This document shows, piece after piece, positions 1 to 25,276 of a DNA stretch of 33,183 bases. The stretch's first letter is position 1, and each line of letters starts with the position of its first letter. The position numbers and the translations under genes were made by a program. The notes under the pieces were generated by a model, which did not search any database, had not been told where the DNA came from, and saw only the letters and a list, made by a program, of their open reading frames with translations. Source of the DNA: Polyangium sp. 15x6 (GTDB lineage: Bacteria > Myxococcota_A > Polyangia > Polyangiales > Polyangiaceae); assembly GCF_029960785.1 (NCBI RefSeq), contig NZ_JASBQE010000122.1, positions 1 through 33,183 on the forward strand, written 5' to 3'.

Positions 1-168
1 CGGCAGCGCTGCCGTCTCGGCTGGCGAAGCCGCTCGTGGTCTTGGCAGGGCCTCTGTTCGATGAACTGCGCATCGCGCAGTTCATCGACCCCGAGTCCAG
101 CGCTTGCGCTGGTCCGGGGTGCAGGGGGCGGACAGCCCCCTGCTGGGGTGCGGGGCAACGCCCCGCTC
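1..168 (+). repeat. Gene-end four-hairpin module, copy A
   Basis: This stretch reads as four consecutive perfect hairpins ending next to the stop codon of the MFS gene. Hairpin 1 is at 58-88, with a 14-bp stem and ATC loop. Hairpin 2 is at 97-112 (CCAGCGCTTGCGCTGG). Hairpin 3 is at 121-143 and hairpin 4 at 150-166 (GCGGGGCAACGCCCCGC). Hairpin 4 ends 2 nt from the stop complement at 169. Bases 1-57 resemble the core that joins paired modules at 6018-6104 (shared TGGTCTTG), so the window edge probably cuts an inverted pair. Five related modules occur in the window. The role is unknown; transcript end formation or mRNA protection is an inference. Confidence 0.85.
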
Positions 169-1368: not shown

Positions 1369-1485
1369 CGACGGCTCGCCTCGTTCGTACGGCGCGCCAC
1401 GAGGCGTTCGGGTGGCGCTGGGCGCGCATCCTGACACAGGCGCCGCGAGCACGCCCTTCCGTCGCGTCACGAAACCACCTCGGGG

Positions 1486-1626
1486 GGCGGTCGCGACCGG
1501 GGAGACGGGCCACGAAACCACTTCGAAGAGCCGCGCGCGGCGGTCTTGGGTGGTTCGAAACCAGTTTGAAGTGCCGCGCGCGGCGGTCTCGATTGGTTCG
1601 ACCACTTCGAAGGCGGTCGCGACCGG
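1486..1626. repeat. 43-bp tandem repeat flanked by palindromic direct repeats
   Basis: The 314-bp gap between the MFS start (1368) and the speA stop (1682) contains about 2.5 copies of a degenerate unit with a 43-bp period. GCCGCGCGCGGCGGTCT recurs at 1530-1546 and 1573-1589, and CCACTTCGAAG recurs at 1518-1528 and 1602-1612. The block is bracketed by two identical 15-bp copies of GGCGGTCGCGACCGG at 1486-1500 and 1612-1626, each holding the palindrome CGGTCGCGACCG. The unit length is not a multiple of three, so the open frames here are artefacts. Confidence 0.8.
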
Positions 1627-1658
1627 GTGGGCGGGTGGTTTCGGAGCTCGCGGGAGGC

Positions 1659-1681
1659 GGGCGCCCGGGGGGCGGGCGCCC
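1659..1681 (-). terminator. GC hairpin directly after speA stop
   Basis: A 9-bp perfect stem (arms 1659-1667 and 1673-1681, GGGCGCCCG with CGGGCGCCC) with a 5-nt loop begins at the base next to the speA stop codon. No U-run follows, so it may terminate with Rho or act as a 3' stabiliser rather than as a classical intrinsic terminator. Confidence 0.5.
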
Positions 1682-3616
1682 TCAGAAGCTGAGGTAGGTC
1701 TGATCCTTGAGGCCGCGCTCGTAATCGGCGAGCAGGCGCATGCCCTCGGTGGGCTTCAGGAGGTCCTGCTTGATCGCGCCGTCGACCTGGGCCTTCACCT
1801 TCGCGATGAGGCTCTGCGTGTCGTACTGCGTCAGCGCGAGGACCTCGCGGATCTGGTTCCCCGCGATCGTCTCCTCGATGTAGTAGCCGCACTCCTCGTC
1901 GTCATCGAGGAAGACGTGCACCTCGTTCACCCGGCCGAACAGGTTGTGGATGTCGCCCATGATGTCCTGGTAGGCGCCGGTGAGGAAGATGCCGAGGTAA
2001 TACGGCTCGTCGCCGCGCAGCGCGTGGAGCGGCAGCGTCTCCTTCACGTCGGAGAGGTCGATGAACTTCGAGACCTTGCCCTCCGAGTCGCACGTGATGT
2101 CGACGAGCGTGCTCTCCGCCCCGGGCCGCTCGTGCAGCCGATGGATCGGCACGACCGGGAAGAGCGCGCCGAGCGCCCAGTGATCGAGCAGCGACTGGAA
2201 CACCGAGAAGTTGCAGATGTACTGGTCGGCGAGCTTGTTCCGTAGCTCGACGACGTCCTCGGGGATCTCCGCGGGATCGAGCGCCGTGATGAGCTTCTGC
2301 ATGCGCTCGGCGGTCTCCCAGAACAAGGCCTCGACCCGCGCCTTCACGTCGAGGTTCAAGAGCCCGAGCTCGAACATCTTCTGCGACTCCTCCTTCGCCT
2401 GGAGGATGTCGTGCCACGACTCGGCGAGGTTCTGGACCGAGAGGCTGTCGCGCGTGTCGAGCAGGTTCCGAATGAGCTTGTGCTCCTCCGTCTGGATGTC
2501 GATCGGCGCCTCCGGGGTCTTCTCGATCGAGCCGAACGCCTGCACCACGAGCACCGAGTGGTGCGCGACGATCGCGCGCCCCGACTCGCTCACGATGTTC
2601 GGGTGCGGGACTTTCTCGTCGTCGCAGATGTCCGCGATGTTGAAGACGATGTCGCGCGCGTACTCCTCGACGGAGTAGTTCATCGACGAGTGGAACGTCG
2701 ATCGCGAGCCGTCGTAGTCGATCGCGAGGCCGCCGCCGACGTCCATGTACTCGATGCGGTGCCCCATCTTGCGGAGCTTGGCGTAGTGCCGCGCCGCCTC
2801 GCGCACCGCGCGCTTGATGACGAGGATGTCCGGGACCTGCGAGCCGATGTGGAAGTGCAGGAGCTTGAACGCCGAGCTCATGCCCGCCTCCGCGAGGATC
2901 CCGCATGCCGCGAGGATCTCCGCCGTGGACAGGCCGAACTTCGCGTGCTCGCCGCCGCTCTCGGCCCACTTGCCGGCGCCCTGCGTCATGAGACGAACGC
3001 GGAGGCCGAGCATGGGCTCCACGTTCATTTCCTTTGCAACACGAACGATCGTCCGCACCTCGGAGAGCTTCTCCGCGACGAGGATGACCTTCTTGCCGAG
3101 CTTGCGGCCGATCATCGCGGTGCGGATGAAGTTCTCGTCCTTGTAGCCGTTGCAGACGATGAGCGACTCGTTGTCGGTGTGGACGCTGAGCCCCGCGAAG
3201 AGCTCGGGCTTCGAGCCGACCTCGAGGCCGTAGTGGTAGGTCCGGCCCGCTTCGAGGATCTCCTCCACGACCTCCTTCAGCTGGTTCACCTTGATGGGGA
3301 ACACGCCACGGTAGGTGCCGCGGAACTTGAGGTCGGAGATCGCGCGGTTGAACGCTTCGTTCAGCGTCCGCACGCGGTGGTGCAAGAGATCCTGGAAGCG
3401 GATCAGGAGCGGGGTGCGAAGGCCCTGATCACGCGCCTCTTCGACGACGTCGATGAGGGCGATCTTGCGACCTCGATCCTGGAGGGGCGCCGCCGTGATG
3501 TTCCCCGTGGGGTTCACGTCGAAGTAGCCGCGGCCCCAGCGGTCGATCATGTAAAGGGCCTTCGCGTCGTCGGTGCTCCACGCGTCGGTGTCGGTGTCGT
3601 GATGGCTGCTGGTCAA
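1682..3616 (-). CDS. speA: Biosynthetic arginine decarboxylase
   Basis: Converts arginine to agmatine with pyridoxal phosphate, the first step of the agmatine route to putrescine; cytosolic. The 644 residues match the length of E. coli SpeA (about 658). Visible landmarks are the PLP lysine K109 in PIKVNQ, VCNGYKD at 154-160, HFHIGSQ at 254-260, GGGLAIDYDG at 294-303, SESGRA at 343-348 and the catalytic-cysteine segment DITCDSEG in the C-terminal domain. The start is TTG at 3616, chosen because AAGGGAGA lies 8 nt upstream and the N-terminal region aligns with the family (WGRGYFDVN like WGNNYYDVN). It lies downstream of a small basic protein gene on the same strand but has its own promoter-like sequence and a long hairpin-rich leader. 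No agmatinase gene is in the window. Confidence 0.97.
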   Translation of the reverse strand: MTSSHHDTDTDAWSTDDAKALYMIDRWGRGYFDVNPTGNITAAPLQDRGRKIALIDVVEEARDQGLRTPLLIRFQDLLHHRVRTLNEAFNRAISDLKFRGTYRGVFPIKVNQLKEVVEEILEAGRTYHYGLEVGSKPELFAGLSVHTDNESLIVCNGYKDENFIRTAMIGRKLGKKVILVAEKLSEVRTIVRVAKEMNVEPMLGLRVRLMTQGAGKWAESGGEHAKFGLSTAEILAACGILAEAGMSSAFKLLHFHIGSQVPDILVIKRAVREAARHYAKLRKMGHRIEYMDVGGGLAIDYDGSRSTFHSSMNYSVEEYARDIVFNIADICDDEKVPHPNIVSESGRAIVAHHSVLVVQAFGSIEKTPEAPIDIQTEEHKLIRNLLDTRDSLSVQNLAESWHDILQAKEESQKMFELGLLNLDVKARVEALFWETAERMQKLITALDPAEIPEDVVELRNKLADQYICNFSVFQSLLDHWALGALFPVVPIHRLHERPGAESTLVDITCDSEGKVSKFIDLSDVKETLPLHALRGDEPYYLGIFLTGAYQDIMGDIHNLFGRVNEVHVFLDDDEECGYYIEETIAGNQIREVLALTQYDTQSLIAKVKAQVDGAIKQDLLKPTEGMRLLADYERGLKDQTYLSF

Positions 3617-5074: not shown

Positions 5075-5899
5075 TCTGCGTTTTTCTCGGCGAGGCCCGC
5101 CACGGCCGCCGATTACGACACGTACGCGCGCCTGTTTCCCGAGCTCGGGACGGACGATCCCACGCTGTCGCGCGAGCCATGGGCCGCGGAGCTCATGCCC
5201 CACACGCTGATCCTGGAGCAAGGGAGCGATATCGTGGGGTACGCGTACGTGGTGGTGCTGAAGGAGACGGGGTACGTGCGCCACGTGGTCGTCGCGCCCG
5301 AGGCGCGCGGCAAAGGCGCGGGGCGCGCGCTGATGCAGGCGAGCGCCGAGCGATTCCGCGCGGCAGGCTGCTCGCGCTGGTGTCTCAACGTGAAGGTCGA
5401 GAACACCGTGGCGATCGCGCTGTATTCGTCGCTCGGCCTGGCGAAGGTGTACGAGTCGACGTCGATGCGGATCGGCTGGGAGACGCTCGCACGCCTGCCC
5501 GGCGAAGAAGAAGGGATCACGGCGCGGGTGATCGATCCGCGCGAGGACGCGGCGCTGGAGGCGGCATTTGGCCTGCCCATCGGTGCGATCACGATCTGTC
5601 GCGCGCGAGCGGGGTGGGTGCTGCTCCGGCTCGTGGACGCGGCGCAGCCAGAGGAGGCGCGGGTAGGGTTTGCCTGTTTCAATCCGTCATTCCCGGGTTC
5701 ATTCCCGTTCCGCGTGGCAGGGCCGACGCTCGTTCGGCCCCTGCTCGAAGCCCTCCGGCCTCACGCGAGGCCCGAGGACACGTTCACGCAGGTCGTCGTG
5801 GAGGACGATCCCGAGACGAAACACGCGCTCGTCGAGGCAGGTGCGTCGGTGCGGATGGAGATCATGAACATGGCAGGGCCGATCCCGGAACGGGTTTGA
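5072..5899 (+). CDS. GNAT-family N-acetyltransferase
   Basis: A 275-residue protein whose N-terminal half is a clear Gcn5-related acetyltransferase. VVVAPEARGKGAGRAL is the acetyl-CoA pyrophosphate loop (R/QxxGxG/A type), followed by NVKVENTVAIALYSSLGLAKVYES, the usual motif B region. The C-terminal 120 residues form a second, weaker domain that may be a degenerate GNAT repeat; it contains PEDTFTQVVVEDDPETKHALVEAGASVRMEIMNM, which looks like a second motif B. The acceptor is unknown. The ATG at 5072 is preferred over an in-frame TTG at 5018 that overlaps the previous stop, because the family N-terminus (SARPATAADYD) starts here. Its 3' end runs into hairpin module B1. Confidence 0.88.
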   Translation: MSAFFSARPATAADYDTYARLFPELGTDDPTLSREPWAAELMPHTLILEQGSDIVGYAYVVVLKETGYVRHVVVAPEARGKGAGRALMQASAERFRAAGCSRWCLNVKVENTVAIALYSSLGLAKVYESTSMRIGWETLARLPGEEEGITARVIDPREDAALEAAFGLPIGAITICRARAGWVLLRLVDAAQPEEARVGFACFNPSFPGSFPFRVAGPTLVRPLLEALRPHARPEDTFTQVVVEDDPETKHALVEAGASVRMEIMNMAGPIPERV

Positions 5900-5911: not shown

Positions 5912-6209
5912 CTGGGGCGTTGCCCCAGGCCCCACCAGGGGCTATCCGCCCCTGGACCCGGACCAGCGCAAGCGCTGGACCCGGGGTCGATGAACTGCGC
6001 TTCGCGCAGTTCATCGAACAGGTCGAGGCAAGACCAGCTACGACCCTGCCGACCAAGACCGCCGTGACTGGCAACGCTGTCCCTGGTCTTGCCACCGGCC
6101 CTGTGGGAAGAACTGCGCATCGCGCAGTTCTTCCCCCTGAGGTCCAGGGCTTGCCCTGGTCCGGGTCGAGGGGCGGATAGCCCCCGCGGGGTCCGGGGCA
6201 GAGCCCCGG
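5912..6209. repeat. Inverted pair of gene-end four-hairpin modules, copies B1 and B2
   Basis: Lying between two convergent genes, this element holds two modules head to head. B1 reads outward from the GNAT stop: hairpin 4 (5912-5928), 3 (5935-5955), 2 (5963-5978), 1 (5987-6017, 14-bp stem). B2 is its mirror: hairpin 1 (6105-6135, 14-bp stem, ATC loop), 2 (6144-6159), 3 (6170-6184), 4 (6193-6209), ending 8 nt from the TPR gene stop. The core 6018-6104 has its own 11-bp inverted repeat (GGCAAGACCAG 6027-6037 with CTGGTCTTGCC 6083-6093). Stem sequences differ between the two sides but pairing is kept. Confidence 0.85.
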
Positions 6210-6217
6210 CGCAGCGC

Positions 6218-9200
6218 CTAGTTCGTGGCCTTGCCGGCGAGCAGGTCTGCGGCCGTCTTGCGGATGCGGGGCTCGGGGTCGCTCGTGGAGAGCTTGCGCA
6301 GGATGGGCTCGGCGGCGGCGCGGTCGAGTGAGGCCATCGAGAGGGCTGCGGCCTCGCGCACGAGGGCGTACGGGTCCTCCTGCGCGATCGTGGTGAGCGT
6401 GTCGAAGGCGACGCGGCCGCCTGCGCCCGCGCCGAGACGACCGAGTGCTTCGGCGGCGCGCACGCGGAGTGGCCAGCTCGGGGCTTCGCGACCGAGGCGC
6501 GCGACGGCGGCGATGGTCGCTGGGTGCTTGATCTTGCCGAGCGCGGCGAGGGCGGCTCGACGCACGCTCTCTTCGGGATCGGAGAGCGCGTCGATCACGG
6601 CGTCTTGCGCCTCTTTTTCGGGCCTGCGCGCCAGGAGCTCGACTGCGCGCGTGCGGACCTCGAGCGCTGGATGGCGGACGAGCGCGACGAATGCAGGGAC
6701 GACGGCGGCGGCGATGCGCTCGATCGCGGCGGAGCTCGCGCGCGCCGCCTCGGGATCGAGCTTGTCGTCGCGGCCGAGCAGGGGCGCGAGCGAGAGCTCC
6801 ACGTCGCTCGCGAGGAGCGCGTCTGCCACGACGCGGGCGCGATCGGGCGAGGTCGAGGCTGCGGCCACGGCTGCGCGTTCGAGCGAGGGCGCGAGCGCGA
6901 CGAGGGCGCGGGCGCGGGCGGACGCGAGGTGTGCCGCGTCGGGGCCGAGGCCTGCGAGGATCTCCTTCATGGAAAGCGGACCATCGGGCACTGGCAGTGC
7001 TTCACCCGTGCGGGAGAAGTTCTTCGTGGCGAGCGCGGTCGCGGCGGCGACGGCGGTGCGGCGCATCGACTCGTCGGTCGCGAACAGGCTCGACGCGAGG
7101 GCGTTCTCGGCCGAGGCGCTCTGCGCGGCGTCGCCCTTCGGCGCGAGGCGCGCGAGGGCCACGAGGGCCGCCTGCCGGAGGATCGGCTCGTTCGCGTCGG
7201 CGAGCGCGACGAGCATGTGGAGGTTTTCGCTCTGGGAAGCGCCGACCTCGGCGAGCGCGTGCACGGCTGCGGCGCGCGCGGTCGCGCCGGCCTCGGGCGC
7301 GCGGGCGAGGGCCACCAGCGCGGGGGTGTACTTCTTGTCGTGCGTCAGCCCGAGGCCGAGGGCCGCGACGCCGCGCACCTCCGGCGAGGTCGAGCCGAGA
7401 AGTTTGACCAGCAAGGGTTCCGCTTTCTTGTCACCCATGCGCGCCACGCCCCAGGCTGCGGCGACGGCGATGGAGTCGCTCGGCAGGAGCGCCGCGCCCG
7501 TGTCCTTCGGCGCGAGCATCTGCTCGTAGCGCGGCAGGATCGACGGATCACGCAGCGCGCCGCAGGCGATCATGGCCCGCACGCGCAGGCTCTTGTCGGC
7601 CTGGCCCGTGGCGTAGTTGTAGAGGGCCGGTCCCGCGCTCTTGTTCTCGACGTACGCGAGCACCTCGATCGCGATCTTCTGCTGCGACTCCTTGTCGTCG
7701 GCGAGCGCGTCGAGCAGCGGCTTGATCGCGCGCGCGCCGATCTTCGCGAGCTCCGCGCGGGCCGCCTTCGCCGCGGGCGACGTGCCGCCCTCGTGACGCA
7801 CCTTCTGCACGAGCGGCAGCGTCATCGCGCCGTAGAGCTCGACGAGCAGACGCCGGTAGATCCCCTTCTGCGGGTTGCCGACGGCGACGGGCAGGAGCTC
7901 GCGTTCGAGGGACTCGAGCGAGTTCTTGCCCAGGTTGATCTGCATGCTCATGCGCGCCGCGCGCGAGACGAGCTCCTCGTCGGGCGATGAGCGCACGACG
8001 CGACGGAAGAGGCGATCGGCCTCGTCGACCTGGCCGCTCGAGAGGAGCAACTCGGCGAGGTCGAAGTAGACCGGGAAGAGACGGTCGTTGCGCTGGATCG
8101 CCTGGCGATACTCGGCAATCGCGTGGACGTAGTCCTGCCGCCGGCGGTACATGTCGCCGAGCTTCTGATGACCGTTCGCGTCCTCGGGCGAGAGCTCCAC
8201 GGCGCGCGCGGCGTACTTGATGGAGTCGTCGTCCCGATAGAGCTCGGCCGCATACTGCGCCATGCGCTGGTAGAACTCGCGGGCGCGCTTGGGGTTCACC
8301 TCGACGAGTTTTTCGAGGACGCCGATCGCGCCGAGCAGGTTTTGTTCGAGCACCAAGATTCGTTCGAGCGCGAGCAGGCTCTCCTCGTCGCCGGGCGCGA
8401 GCTCGGTGACCTTGCGCAGCGTGGCCTCGGCGTCCGCGAGGCGATGCAGGCGGCGCTGCACCTCGGCGAGCAGCCTTCCGGCTTCGAGGTCGGGCGGGGT
8501 CGCGTTGAAGCGCGCCGTGAGCGGCGCGACGCGGCCCGGGAGCTCGTGCGCGAGCGACCACAAGCTCACGATGTGCGTGCGCGCCTCCCGCGCGAGGAGC
8601 TTGTCGTTCTGCGCTCCGGCGAGCAGCTCCTCCCAGATCACGCGCGCCTCGGCGTAACGCGACGCGGCGCTGCCGAGCGACGCGGCCGTGCGCTCGATCG
8701 CGATGGCGAGGTTCTTCTTGTACCGGACGTTCGTCGGCTCGAGCTGGACGGCCTCGCGCAGCGCGTTCAGCGCTTCGAGCGGCATGTCGTGGTCGAGGTA
8801 GACCTCGCCGAGCAGGGAGTTCGCCCGCGCGCGGTTCGGCACGACCTGCTTGATGCGCGCCCACGTCTCCAGGGCCTTTTTCTTGTCGCCGGCCTGGTAG
8901 TAGCGATCGCCGAGATCGACGATGTACGTGTGGTCGGCGCCGCCCGAGGCCGCGAGCTTCTGCAGGACCTTGAGGGCCTTGTCCTTCTCCTCGACGCGCT
9001 CGTAGAAGTCGGCGACGGCGGCGAGGATCTCGGGCTCGCTGCCGACGCGCGCTTCGAGCTCGGTGAGCAGCTTCAACGCCTTCGGGCGATCGCCGCGCTG
9101 GATCAGCGTCTCGCAGAGCTCGAAGACGAAGTCCGGGTTCCCGGGCGCGGCCTTGATGAGCGCCTCGTACTCCTTGATCGCCGCGTCGAGCTCGCCCGCG

Positions 9201-16140: not shown

Positions 16141-17763
16141 TCGACATCGCACCTCGAATCTCCGCGCAAGATCCTCGAGCTCGGCACAGGCACCACGGCC
16201 TCTGCGTGGCTCGGGAGTTCGGGCCTCGTCGCGTTTTTGACGTCGAGGCCGGCCCGCATCGCGGTCACGCCCGTGACGGCGACGAGCGGAGAAGCGATCG
16301 ATCTACCCCGCATCACCGCGCAGGAAGTGGCGCTGCTGTCGAAAGACGTGGCGCTCGTTCGCGACAAGGAAGGAACGGTGTGGTCCGTGCCGCTCGGGGA
16401 TCCGTACCGGGTGCGCGAGATCGTGCGGGACATGCGGACGCTCTTGCCGCGTCCTTCGGGGGAAGGCGCGTTCGCGATCAGCGACGAGGGCAAGGTGCTC
16501 ACGCTGTCGCTCGGTCGCGGCGAGGTCGGCGCGCGGCCCGTGGAGGTCCCGGGGCGCGTGCGCGCGGGAGACGCGGGAGACGGCGTGACGTACCTCCTGG
16601 CCGAAGGCGAGCAAGGCGGGCAGCTGCGCGTGTATCCGGGCACGACGCCGGAGCGCGGGCCGAGCGCGCGCGTGACGTTGCCGGCGGAGGCGGCGGAGTT
16701 CGATCAGGTGCGCGGCGGGCGCGTGTATTGCGCGGTGTTCAAGCGCGGCGGGACGGGGCTCTGCTTGGTGATACGGGACGGGGCGCGCGCGGAGGCGTCG
16801 CTCGTCACGCTGGAGGCGCCGATCGCGGATGCGGTGGTGACGGAGACGAGCGTGGTCGTGGCGTTCGCGAATGGGAAGCTCGCGCTGTACGACGCTGCGT
16901 CGCTGGCGACGCCGAGCGAGGGGCCGAGGGCGCCGGTGAGCACGACGGCGGCGGGCGGGAAGGGGCGGCCGCGTGTGCTTCTGGCGACGACGACGAAGGG
17001 GGCGACGTCGATCTGGATCGGGACGGCCGAGGGCGAGGTGTTGCGCGCGGCGGTCGTCGAGGCGGCCGCGGCGCCGGAGCCGCCGGCCGCGGAGCCTGCG
17101 GCGCCGGTTGTGCAGGGGCCGTCGACGGAGGAGGTCGAGGCGCTGCGGAAGGAGGTCGCGTCGCTGCGGGGGGCGCTCGCGGAGAAGGGACGCGACGTCG
17201 AGACCGTAAAAACGCTCCTCGATGAGAGGCATCGAGAGGTCGAGACCGTAAAAACGCTCCTCGGTGAGAGGGATCGAGAGGTCGCCACCGTGAAGACGTT
17301 GCTCGACGAGAAGGGTCGAGAGGTCGACGGACTGAAAGTTTTGCTCGACGAGAAGGGTCGAGAGGTCGACGGACTGAAAAGTTTGCTCGACGAGAAGGGT
17401 CGAGAGGTCGACGGACTGAAAAGTTTGCTCGACGAGAAGGGTCGAGAGGTCGACGGACTGAAAAGTTTGCTCGACGAGAAGGGTCGGGAGGTCGACGGAC
17501 GGCTGAAAAGTTTGCTCGACGAGAAGGGTCGAGAGGTCGACGGACTGAAAGCTTTGCTCGACGAGAAGGGGCGAGAGCTCGAACGCGTGCAAGGCGGGCT
17601 CGAAACGAGCAAGCGCGACCTCGCGCGTGCTCTCGAGGATCTCCGCGAGGAGCGCGCGAAGTACGAGCAGAGCCTCGGCAAGCGGCTGGACGGCGTCCTG
17701 CCCGAGCGCGTGCGCAGCGGCGTCGACTTCGTCGTCTCGCTCGTCGAGAACCGCCGCCGCTGA
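16138..17763 (+). CDS. Beta-repeat protein with expanded 14-residue coiled-coil repeats
   Basis: A 541-residue protein with no signal peptide. Residues 1 to about 310 are beta-rich with repeating short strands and loops, like a degenerate beta-propeller (DVALVRDKEGTVWSVPLGD, VVVAFANGKLALYDAASLA). An Ala/Pro linker (about 310-335) leads into a coiled coil. Residues 354-480 are nine tandem copies of a 14-residue, two-heptad unit of the form VDGLKSLLDEKGRE. The first three are more divergent (VETVKTLLDERHRE), and one of the later copies carries an extra Arg (VDGRLKS). The tail (ETSKRDLARALEDLREERAKYEQSL) continues the coil. It is likely cytosolic and oligomeric, possibly a sensor or cytoskeletal element; no family is recognised. 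Confidence 0.85.
   Translation: MSTSHLESPRKILELGTGTTASAWLGSSGLVAFLTSRPARIAVTPVTATSGEAIDLPRITAQEVALLSKDVALVRDKEGTVWSVPLGDPYRVREIVRDMRTLLPRPSGEGAFAISDEGKVLTLSLGRGEVGARPVEVPGRVRAGDAGDGVTYLLAEGEQGGQLRVYPGTTPERGPSARVTLPAEAAEFDQVRGGRVYCAVFKRGGTGLCLVIRDGARAEASLVTLEAPIADAVVTETSVVVAFANGKLALYDAASLATPSEGPRAPVSTTAAGGKGRPRVLLATTTKGATSIWIGTAEGEVLRAAVVEAAAAPEPPAAEPAAPVVQGPSTEEVEALRKEVASLRGALAEKGRDVETVKTLLDERHREVETVKTLLGERDREVATVKTLLDEKGREVDGLKVLLDEKGREVDGLKSLLDEKGREVDGLKSLLDEKGREVDGLKSLLDEKGREVDGRLKSLLDEKGREVDGLKALLDEKGRELERVQGGLETSKRDLARALEDLREERAKYEQSLGKRLDGVLPERVRSGVDFVVSLVENRRR
17197..17577 (+). repeat. Nine-copy 42-bp in-frame tandem repeat
   Basis: 381 bp made of eight 42-bp units and one 45-bp unit inside the coiled-coil gene. 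Copies 4-9 are almost identical at DNA level (the run GAAAAGTTTGCTCGACGAGA recurs), which suggests recent expansion by slippage or unequal crossing-over. The 45-bp unit has an inserted CGG (extra Arg) that shifts the heptad register by one residue. There are no unique spacers, so it is not a CRISPR array. Confidence 0.95.
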
Positions 17764-17770
17764 GCCTCCT

Positions 17771-17872
17771 TGCAAAGGCCGCATCGCGGCCTTTGCACCA
17801 GCGGTCCAGCGCTTGCGCTGGTCCGGGTGCAGGGGCGGATAGCCCCTGCTCGGGTCCGGGGTGAAACCCCGG
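17771..17872 (+). repeat. Gene-end four-hairpin module, copy C
   Basis: A single module between convergent genes. Hairpin 1 is at 17771-17797 (12-bp stem, ATC loop, stem TGCAAAGGCCGC unlike copies A and B). Hairpin 2 is at 17806-17821, hairpin 3 at 17829-17849 and hairpin 4 at 17856-17872 (CCGGGGTGAAACCCCGG), ending 15 nt from the stop of the HD gene (17888). No mirrored partner serves the coiled-coil gene; only 7 nt separate its stop from hairpin 1. Confidence 0.85.
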
Positions 17873-24987: not shown

Positions 24988-25276
24988 GCGGGGCTTTGCC
25001 CCGCACCCCAGAAGGGGGCTGTCCGCCCCCTTCACCCCGGACCAGGCACGGCCTGGACCGAGGGCCGAGAAACCGCGCGATGCGCGGTTTCTCGGACGAG
25101 CCCGTGGCGAGACCACGAGCGGCGTTGCCAACCAAGACAGCAGCGCGGTCGTTCCTGGTCGCGACGTTCTCCCTGTCGACAGCGCGCATCGCGCGCTGTC
25201 GCCCCGGGTCCAGCGCTTGCGCTGGTTCGGGTCCAGGGGCGAACAGCCCCTGGTCGGGCCCGGGGTGAAACCCCGG
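24988..25276. repeat. Inverted pair of gene-end four-hairpin modules, copies D1 and D2
   Basis: Fills the 302-bp gap between two convergent genes. D1: hairpin 4 (24988-25004), 3 (25011-25033), 2 (25042-25056), 1 (25065-25095, 14-bp stem, GAT loop = ATC on the other strand). D2: hairpin 1 (25177-25201, 11-bp stem, ATC loop), 2 (25210-25225), 3 (25233-25253), 4 (25260-25276). The hairpin 1 stems (CCGAGAAACCGCGC in D1, CGACAGCGCGC in D2) are unrelated to each other and to the other copies, but fold the same way. The core between them shares ACCAAGAC and CCTGGTC with the B core. Confidence 0.85.

Follow-up and report, generated by a model that had tools for sequence, protein, structure and literature searches.

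Four-hairpin modules behind Polyangium genes are very probably arms of a MITE family that shares its ends with an IS4/Tn5-type insertion sequence

A stretch of 33,183 nucleotides from Polyangium sp. 15x6 (hereafter the window) carries six copies of a four-hairpin module, each close behind the stop codon of a gene, which raises the question of what these structures are and why they lie where genes end. The first-pass annotation, made from the letters alone, had offered three readings: a transcript-end structure, a barrier to RNases, or a repeat that is selfish and targets the ends of genes. The last of these is the one borne out, by empty sites in related genomes, terminal inverted repeats (TIR), 9-nt target-site duplications (TSD), an insertion sequence (IS) with matching ends and a bias towards gene ends. 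Taken as a whole, the module is very probably an arm of a Polyangium MITE family, which a Tn5-like transposase apparently moves in trans and whose gene-end bias probably arises by both targeting and selection. The earlier statement that the module is not part of one mobile gene was correct, yet it does belong to a mobile element.

All six modules (M1 to M6) were found where they had been placed, and each contains four hairpins in a constant order, which we name in gene sense A (the former hairpin 4, proximal to the stop), B, C and D, while the types F, R, S, T and U are our own labels, based on the D arm. As had been claimed, the genes beside the modules belong to different families (MFS, GNAT, TPR/HEAT, HD, phosphonate-binding and TamB). 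The start of the covariance-model match is 3, 13, 9, 16, 3 and 12 nt from the stop in M1 to M6, respectively; the spacing of 2-15 nt first given for hairpin 4 holds for five modules and is exceeded by M4, at 16 nt. The folding energies are 6.1 to 9.2 SD below those of 200 dinucleotide shuffles, and for all six modules no shuffle of the 200 reached the value of the module. In the minimum-energy fold of M3, A is paired with part of C and its own hairpin is not formed. A T run 3' of the hairpins is absent in all six window modules, and an Rfam covariance-model search of the window gave no match at the modules and two sub-threshold matches elsewhere.

M2 (5912..6017, plus strand, F-type; covariance-model score 120.0 bits, z -8.6) is composed of A (5912-5928), B (5935-5955), C (5957-5985) and D (5987-6017), and its hairpin A begins 12 nt after the TGA stop of the GNAT gene (5897..5899, plus strand). 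It is faced by M3 (6105..6209, minus strand, R-type, 115.6 bits), adjoined by the TAG stop of the TPR/HEAT-repeat gene (6218..6220, minus strand), which is TGA in the four relatives with an empty site. The central spacer (6018..6104, no strand assigned) can be read from the sequence as an imperfect palindrome (GGCAAGACCA ... TGGTCTTGCC), and M2 and M3 together are one element between convergent stops. Similarly, M5 (24988..25095, plus strand, S-type, 101.0 bits) and M6 (25177..25276, minus strand, U-type, 92.7 bits) are the left and right arms of a pair; that each pair forms one unit of ~290 nt had not been seen in the first-pass annotation. M4 (17771..17872, minus strand, 98.5 bits) is a single T-type module between convergent stops, and M1, with its A-B-C-D series 3' of the MFS gene stop (58..166, minus strand; match at 58-165, 109.5 bits, z -8.8), is probably one half of an element whose remainder was lost at the contig end. 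The window also holds 42-nt tandem repeats (17133-17603) in the 3' part of a 541-aa gene, which has no Pfam match at E 1e-5.

The distribution of the module was determined in a panel of 59 genomes, comprising 15x6 itself (13.38 Mb, 275 contigs), five Polyangium congeners (G001-G005) and 53 genomes from other genera. The B core GGGGCTNTYCGCCCC has 267+264 = 531 matches in 15x6, where its reversed control has 0, and 50, 374, 358, 268 and 234 in the five congeners; among the 53 other-genus genomes, eight have one or two matches (nine in total), against seven reversed-control matches in the same genomes. A covariance model, proposed at the outset as a check and built here from 30 copies, found matches in six of the 59 genomes, every one a Polyangium, scoring being capped at 67 per genome. 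A longer pattern gave at least 73 stretches in the GTDB contig set, and among the matches listed all are from Polyangium (P. fumosum DSM 14668, sp. 6x1 and sp. y55x31). The family is present in dozens to hundreds of copies per genome and, among the 59 genomes, is restricted to this genus. In the G005 contig C1 (13,235,919 bp), the 32 exact matches of GGGGCTATCCGCCCCT, in which some pairs are counted with both arms, are all confined to 3.62-9.18 Mb. A 7.7-Mb arc with the presumed origin, dnaA being at 11.65 Mb, has none of this subset, while a broader core occurs from 1.31 Mb onward among the matches listed (to 5.56 Mb). In 15x6, taking the first 100 of the 531 B-core places, ten contigs (C4, C6, C7, C14, C18, C25, C34, C36, C38 and C40) begin or end within about 200 nt of a module, and the modules seem to break short-read assembly.

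To describe module anatomy and position we used 795 kb of the 15x6 genome, from contigs known to hold matches, in which 82 covariance-model matches minus three opposite-strand shadows of stronger matches leave 79 copies, arranged as 31 pairs and 17 singles. In gene sense A is GGGGC-nnn-GCCCC, B is GGGGC-TRTYC-GCCCC, C is CCAGnn-loop-nnCTGG, and D is a stem of 11-14 bp with a loop usually of 3 nt, most commonly GAT (150 of 328 copies); the D arm is GATGAACTGCGC in the F type and GAAGAACTGCGC in the R type. The arms are unlike in 30 of the 31 pairs (24 F/R, three F/S, two S/U and one F/U, the remaining pair being R/R), and all five T-type copies in this sample are single. The gap between facing arms is mostly 84-90 nt, the outliers spanning 44 to 559 nt.

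Presence and absence of elements between species at syntenic sites suggest movement. We compared the window with syntenic DNA of the five relatives, whose anchor genes are 83-90% identical; a further synteny anchor, C37, has no long match in relatives. M1 is absent in all five, with the convergent stops adjacent to each other. The M2/M3 site is empty in G001, G003, G004 and G005, and filled and remodelled in G002. The M5/M6 site is empty in G001, G003 and G005, has a single T-type module in G002 and is filled in G004, where the contig breaks off within a module. G002 and G003 carry module pairs at the M4 site, the module of G004 there has additional hairpins, G005 shows a different palindrome, and G001 has nothing. 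Conversely, window 1467-1682 is without modules, and pairs occur there in G002, G003 and G004; a tandem palindromic repeat (GGTTCGAAACCACTTCGAAG-like) lies at 1480-1640, and also at the same place in G005. Elsewhere in 15x6, a 3.7-kb segment of three genes has an F/R pair at each end (L055, C44:104344-108338); segment and pairs are absent in G004 and G005, and G002 has one pair without the segment. As judged from sequence, this segment is a candidate for gene gain by recombination between elements.

The ends of the main F/R family were then defined on intact copies, which begin and end with the terminal inverted repeat CTGAGCATKGGTCTCATC, ~34 nt outside A. The exact TIR pattern has 95 matches in the six genomes, IS ends included, against 0 for the control; allowing up to four mismatches, 41 module outer ends carry it, compared with 295 distinct module ends in the loci. 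Most copies lack the TIR, and the six window modules all fall outside this class. In the 17 two-ended elements, the 9-nt flanks are identical at 9/9 positions in six and at 8/9 in four (L049 included), L263 has a 10-bp duplication, and six show no clear duplication (L267, L276, L280, L083, L150 and L059); L049, L083, L150 and L059 were judged from a separate end alignment, the flank comparison being one base off at the left. Cross-paired flanks match at eight or more positions in only 2 of 272 controls. The two-ended copies are mostly 350-392 bp long, and three of 784-1011 bp (L059, L150 and L122) have interiors that are enlarged, nested or rearranged. In L150 (1095-1980) and L131 (1976) elements are nested in other modules, the new TIR directly adjoining B or C. 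In their sequence, the elements have the structural features of a MITE that were checked, namely terminal inverted repeats on intact copies, a duplication of 8-9 of 9 nt in 10 of the 17 two-ended copies, and a cognate IS whose TIR is identical or almost identical (see below). Widely spaced pairs were considered as autonomous elements and rejected, their interiors being other short repeats: five such pairs inspected by eye, two of them with ORF lists, contained only a C-terminal transposase remnant (L125). Short palindromic repeats like GTTCCGAAAAAGGGGAAC lie between the widely spaced modules of L123 and L125 (G005, 3.86 and 5.31 Mb), and tandem GGCACGGCCTCGTACCTCCAA-like units in L122 and L124.

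The transposase remnant in L125 led to an IS of 1504 bp, present in full four times in G005 and once (1503 bp) in G002, and with 13 partial matches in G003; 15x6 and G001 have diverged relatives only, and G004 has no match. Its 475-aa transposase is of the IS4 family and Tn5-like (NF033590, 254.9 bits; Tn5 transposase structure 1mus, E 4.5e-36), with PF14706, PF01609 and PF02281 over cut-off, and thus has the N-terminal DNA-binding, DDE and C-terminal dimerisation domains of the IS50 group. In G005 the IS has the ends CTGAGCATTGGTTCCATC and CTGAGCACTGGTCTCATC; the G002 copy has the exact TIR of the elements at one end, and insertion duplicates 9 bp. Trans-mobilisation of the MITEs by this IS4-like transposase is what we infer, because ends and duplication length are shared with the IS. 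Of 20 IS copies or ends, in which the two ends of one copy, notably in G003, may count twice, 16 lie in hairpin C, two elsewhere in or across modules (L238, L240) and two outside (L243, L248); no module was found inside the full G005 and G002 copies. The 15x6 genome has the most module copies, yet only diverged IS4-type relatives, with the end CTGACCATTCATCTCATC (L236 and L239, and L237 in G001).

A second family is formed by the T type, whose ends are GAGGGTG...CACCCTC (or CACCTTC) with TGA on both sides. This flanking TGA is present in both complete copies, L261 (15x6) and L259 (G004). The L259 site is empty in G002 and G005, and its TGA is the stop of the neighbouring gene; as the TGA is duplicated on this stop, the insertion leaves the gene whole. 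Six A-side GAGGGTG ends are preceded by TGA (four), TCA (one) or TAG (one), and L260 adds a further TGA. Only the duplication is counted as evidence here, and not the neighbourhood of TGA, because TGA is the commonest stop generally (482 of 615); for the whole family, stops beside elements show no TGA enrichment (43 of 54). An autonomous T-type IS was sought with the strict end pattern, which has only four matches in the six genomes. A 3-bp TNA duplication is known from subgroups of IS5. Because the T-type ends and duplication differ from those of F/R elements, the hairpin array is common to families with different ends.

In the 795-kb sample, no element of the 48 overlaps a called gene by more than 40 nt, an absence that is partly built in, because genes were called with our own codon model and its intergenic training included gaps with modules. 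For the 42 elements with both neighbouring genes, convergent gaps hold 20 in 9.4 kb (10% of the sampled intergenic DNA; 2.13 per kb), tandem gaps 18 in 50.2 kb (0.36 per kb) and divergent gaps four, all pairs, in 34.8 kb (0.12 per kb). With this excess in convergent gaps, copies are not random with respect to stop codons, in agreement with the attachment to gene ends first proposed, and all 14 tandem pairs are closer to the stop (10-35 nt) than to the next start. The orientation described for the window, with the series pointing away from the flanking gene, holds there and does not extend genome-wide, as A is towards the stop in only one of four tandem singles. Such a distribution could also arise if MITE insertion were random and copies in genes or promoters were lost by selection, an explanation of position only, to which we give somewhat less than an even chance; the missing gene overlaps, the stop-proximal tandem pairs, the scarcity in divergent gaps and a young copy inside a called gene (L269) are all consistent with it. 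However, 8 of 10 young copies (with TIR and TSD, their age being inferred from these intact ends) already lie from 36 nt inside to 94 nt beyond a gene 3' end, although these too have come through selection; the other two are L269 and L049, the latter in a divergent gap. Insertion points are also richer in inverted repeats, with a mean, over only 10 observed points, of 4.3 against 2.1 (2.09 at 334 points behind stops, resampling P 5e-5; 2.04 at 784 intergenic points, P 7.5e-4), and are clear hairpins in three of the 10 and not in seven. Together with the TGA duplicated by the T type, this argues against selection alone, and targeting and selection probably both act.

Stem conservation bears on whether the module could instead be a host-encoded transcript-end structure, such as a terminator, an RNA 3'-end protector or an RNase barrier, kept because genes need it. 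In 30 diverse copies, 98.8% of cells are paired in the named structure, against 36-48% when it is slid, with double changes at 15 pairs. In a larger alignment of 341 copies, chosen for an exact B core and a palindromic D, which makes those pairs paired by selection, the C inner pairs are Watson-Crick in 612/612 and the A outer pair in 320/321 cases, and the D pairs, scored in 328 of the 341 copies at the register with most Watson-Crick pairs, in 3860/3936, with eight G-U and 68 other mismatches. A base of the B loop and one of the B-C spacer are Watson-Crick in 306/306 scored copies (C-G 240, T-A 66; 117 and 22 in a smaller set of 139), which would form an overlapping stem or a pseudoknot. The exception is the outer B pair, which is G-U in 117/341. 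RNA helices under selection usually pass through G-U; that such pairs are nearly missing from most of the stems that vary therefore speaks against selection on RNA structure and fits DNA palindromes or strict folding of single-stranded DNA. That the arms are near-perfect despite decayed ends suggests some function, or a DNA repair process, beyond simple mobility.

In favour of a transcript-end role are the short distances to the stop (3-16 nt in the window, 10-35 nt for tandem-gap pairs), the very stable folds and the compensatory stem changes. We consider it improbable all the same, as the module is absent at orthologous genes of several relatives, four pairs occupy divergent gaps, three of four tandem singles are reversed, TIR and TSD are present, no T run follows the window hairpins, and G-U is almost missing from the A outer, C inner, D and B-spacer pairs, with many only in outer B. 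The modules may nevertheless have had a termination effect co-opted. An origin as REP/REPIN elements, mobilised by a Y1 tyrosine transposase (RAYT), would likewise account for inverted, extragenic hairpin doublets in hundreds of copies with compensatory arms; it is scarcely credible, given that the elements have TIR and duplicate 9 nt, and that an IS with a DDE transposase shares these ends. RAYT was rejected as the mover, since PF01797 has no match in three repeat-bearing genomes (G002, G004 and G005) and only one or two in the other three (one in 15x6, one in G003 and two in G001).

We therefore return to the MITE reading, for which the following mechanism can be proposed. An intact F/R element has the order TIR, A-B-C-D, a core of ~85-87 nt, D'-C'-B'-A' and the inverted TIR, and the Tn5/IS50-like transposase of the 1504-bp IS would move it in trans with duplication of 9 nt. 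The T type, with the same hairpins, its own ends and a duplicated TGA, could occupy a TGA stop with the gene kept intact. Insertion would favour GC-rich hairpins, meaning sites behind genes as well as the modules themselves, and insertions elsewhere would be selected against, leaving elements at gene 3' ends. Subsequent decay of the outer ends and exchange of arms between copies would result in the pairs without ends and the single modules that the window shows. As for the hairpins, we think that they serve DNA-level folding in transposition or replication, transcript termination being a tolerated side effect. More speculatively, A-B-C-D might be a portable DNA-folding module, almost strictly Watson-Crick, of at least two MITE families whose unlike ends and duplication lengths would point to different transposases. 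It would combine single-stranded DNA folding, docking of insertions and a self-targeting system that seeks gene ends, and would allow the parasites to occupy stop codons and terminators with no harm to genes; this wider proposal is possible and, in our view, on the unlikely side.

No earlier description for Polyangium was found among the listed titles and abstracts of the open-licence PMC literature, a partial corpus, and the main text of the RepRanger paper (PMC12306157) has 0 occurrences of Polyangium, Myxococc- or Sorangium. Under the MITE reading, the structured 'gene-end' signals that Polyangium genomes have by the hundreds would be mobile DNA, and data are needed before any of them is annotated as a terminator or an RNA. 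This reading would link an IS4/Tn5-type IS to a large MITE family, with the IS entering the same kind of hairpin that its presumed MITEs carry, and provides a case of elements reaching stop codons at little cost through duplication of TGA. Watson-Crick covariation almost without G-U makes DNA- versus RNA-level selection on repeats testable, and assemblies seem to be interrupted at the elements, which also appear to border acquired genes.

The ends of Tn5 start with CTGA and its insertion duplicates 9 bp, both as in the Polyangium IS, and the transposase family is that of IS50/Tn5, as seen in the PDB structure match; in contrast to IS50/Tn5, the Polyangium TIR differs beyond CTGA, a MITE family is present and no composite transposon was seen. 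Pneumococcal BOX, RUP and SPRITE have other sequences, modules and ends than the Polyangium elements. As described for bacterial IS-family MITEs (PMC10969869; TIMEs, PMC4133298), the elements are short, non-autonomous, intergenic and multicopy, with TIR and TSD, and have a cognate IS in related genomes (PMC10969869); they differ from the MITEs of that review, whose main text has no occurrence of 'IS4', in the ordered hairpin array of ~100 nt inside each end, in their unlike arms, and in one array being common to families with different ends and TSD lengths. With REPINs and BIMEs as presented in PMC3116915 they share extragenic inverted doublets of palindromic units with compensatory arm changes, whereas the Polyangium module has four hairpins, an IS4-type TIR and a 9-nt TSD, and there is almost no Y1 transposase. 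Like BOX, RUP and SPRITE in the accounts of PMC3049150 and PMC10969869, they are folded, of narrow taxonomic range, subject to nested insertions and judged parasitic. In the REP-targeting IS elements reported in PMC1525189 an IS enters a repeated extragenic hairpin, as it does here with hairpin C, but in Polyangium the elements that make up the target repeat share terminal repeats with the IS. By this comparison, BOX, RUP and SPRITE, together with the REP-targeting IS elements, appear to be the nearest parallels.
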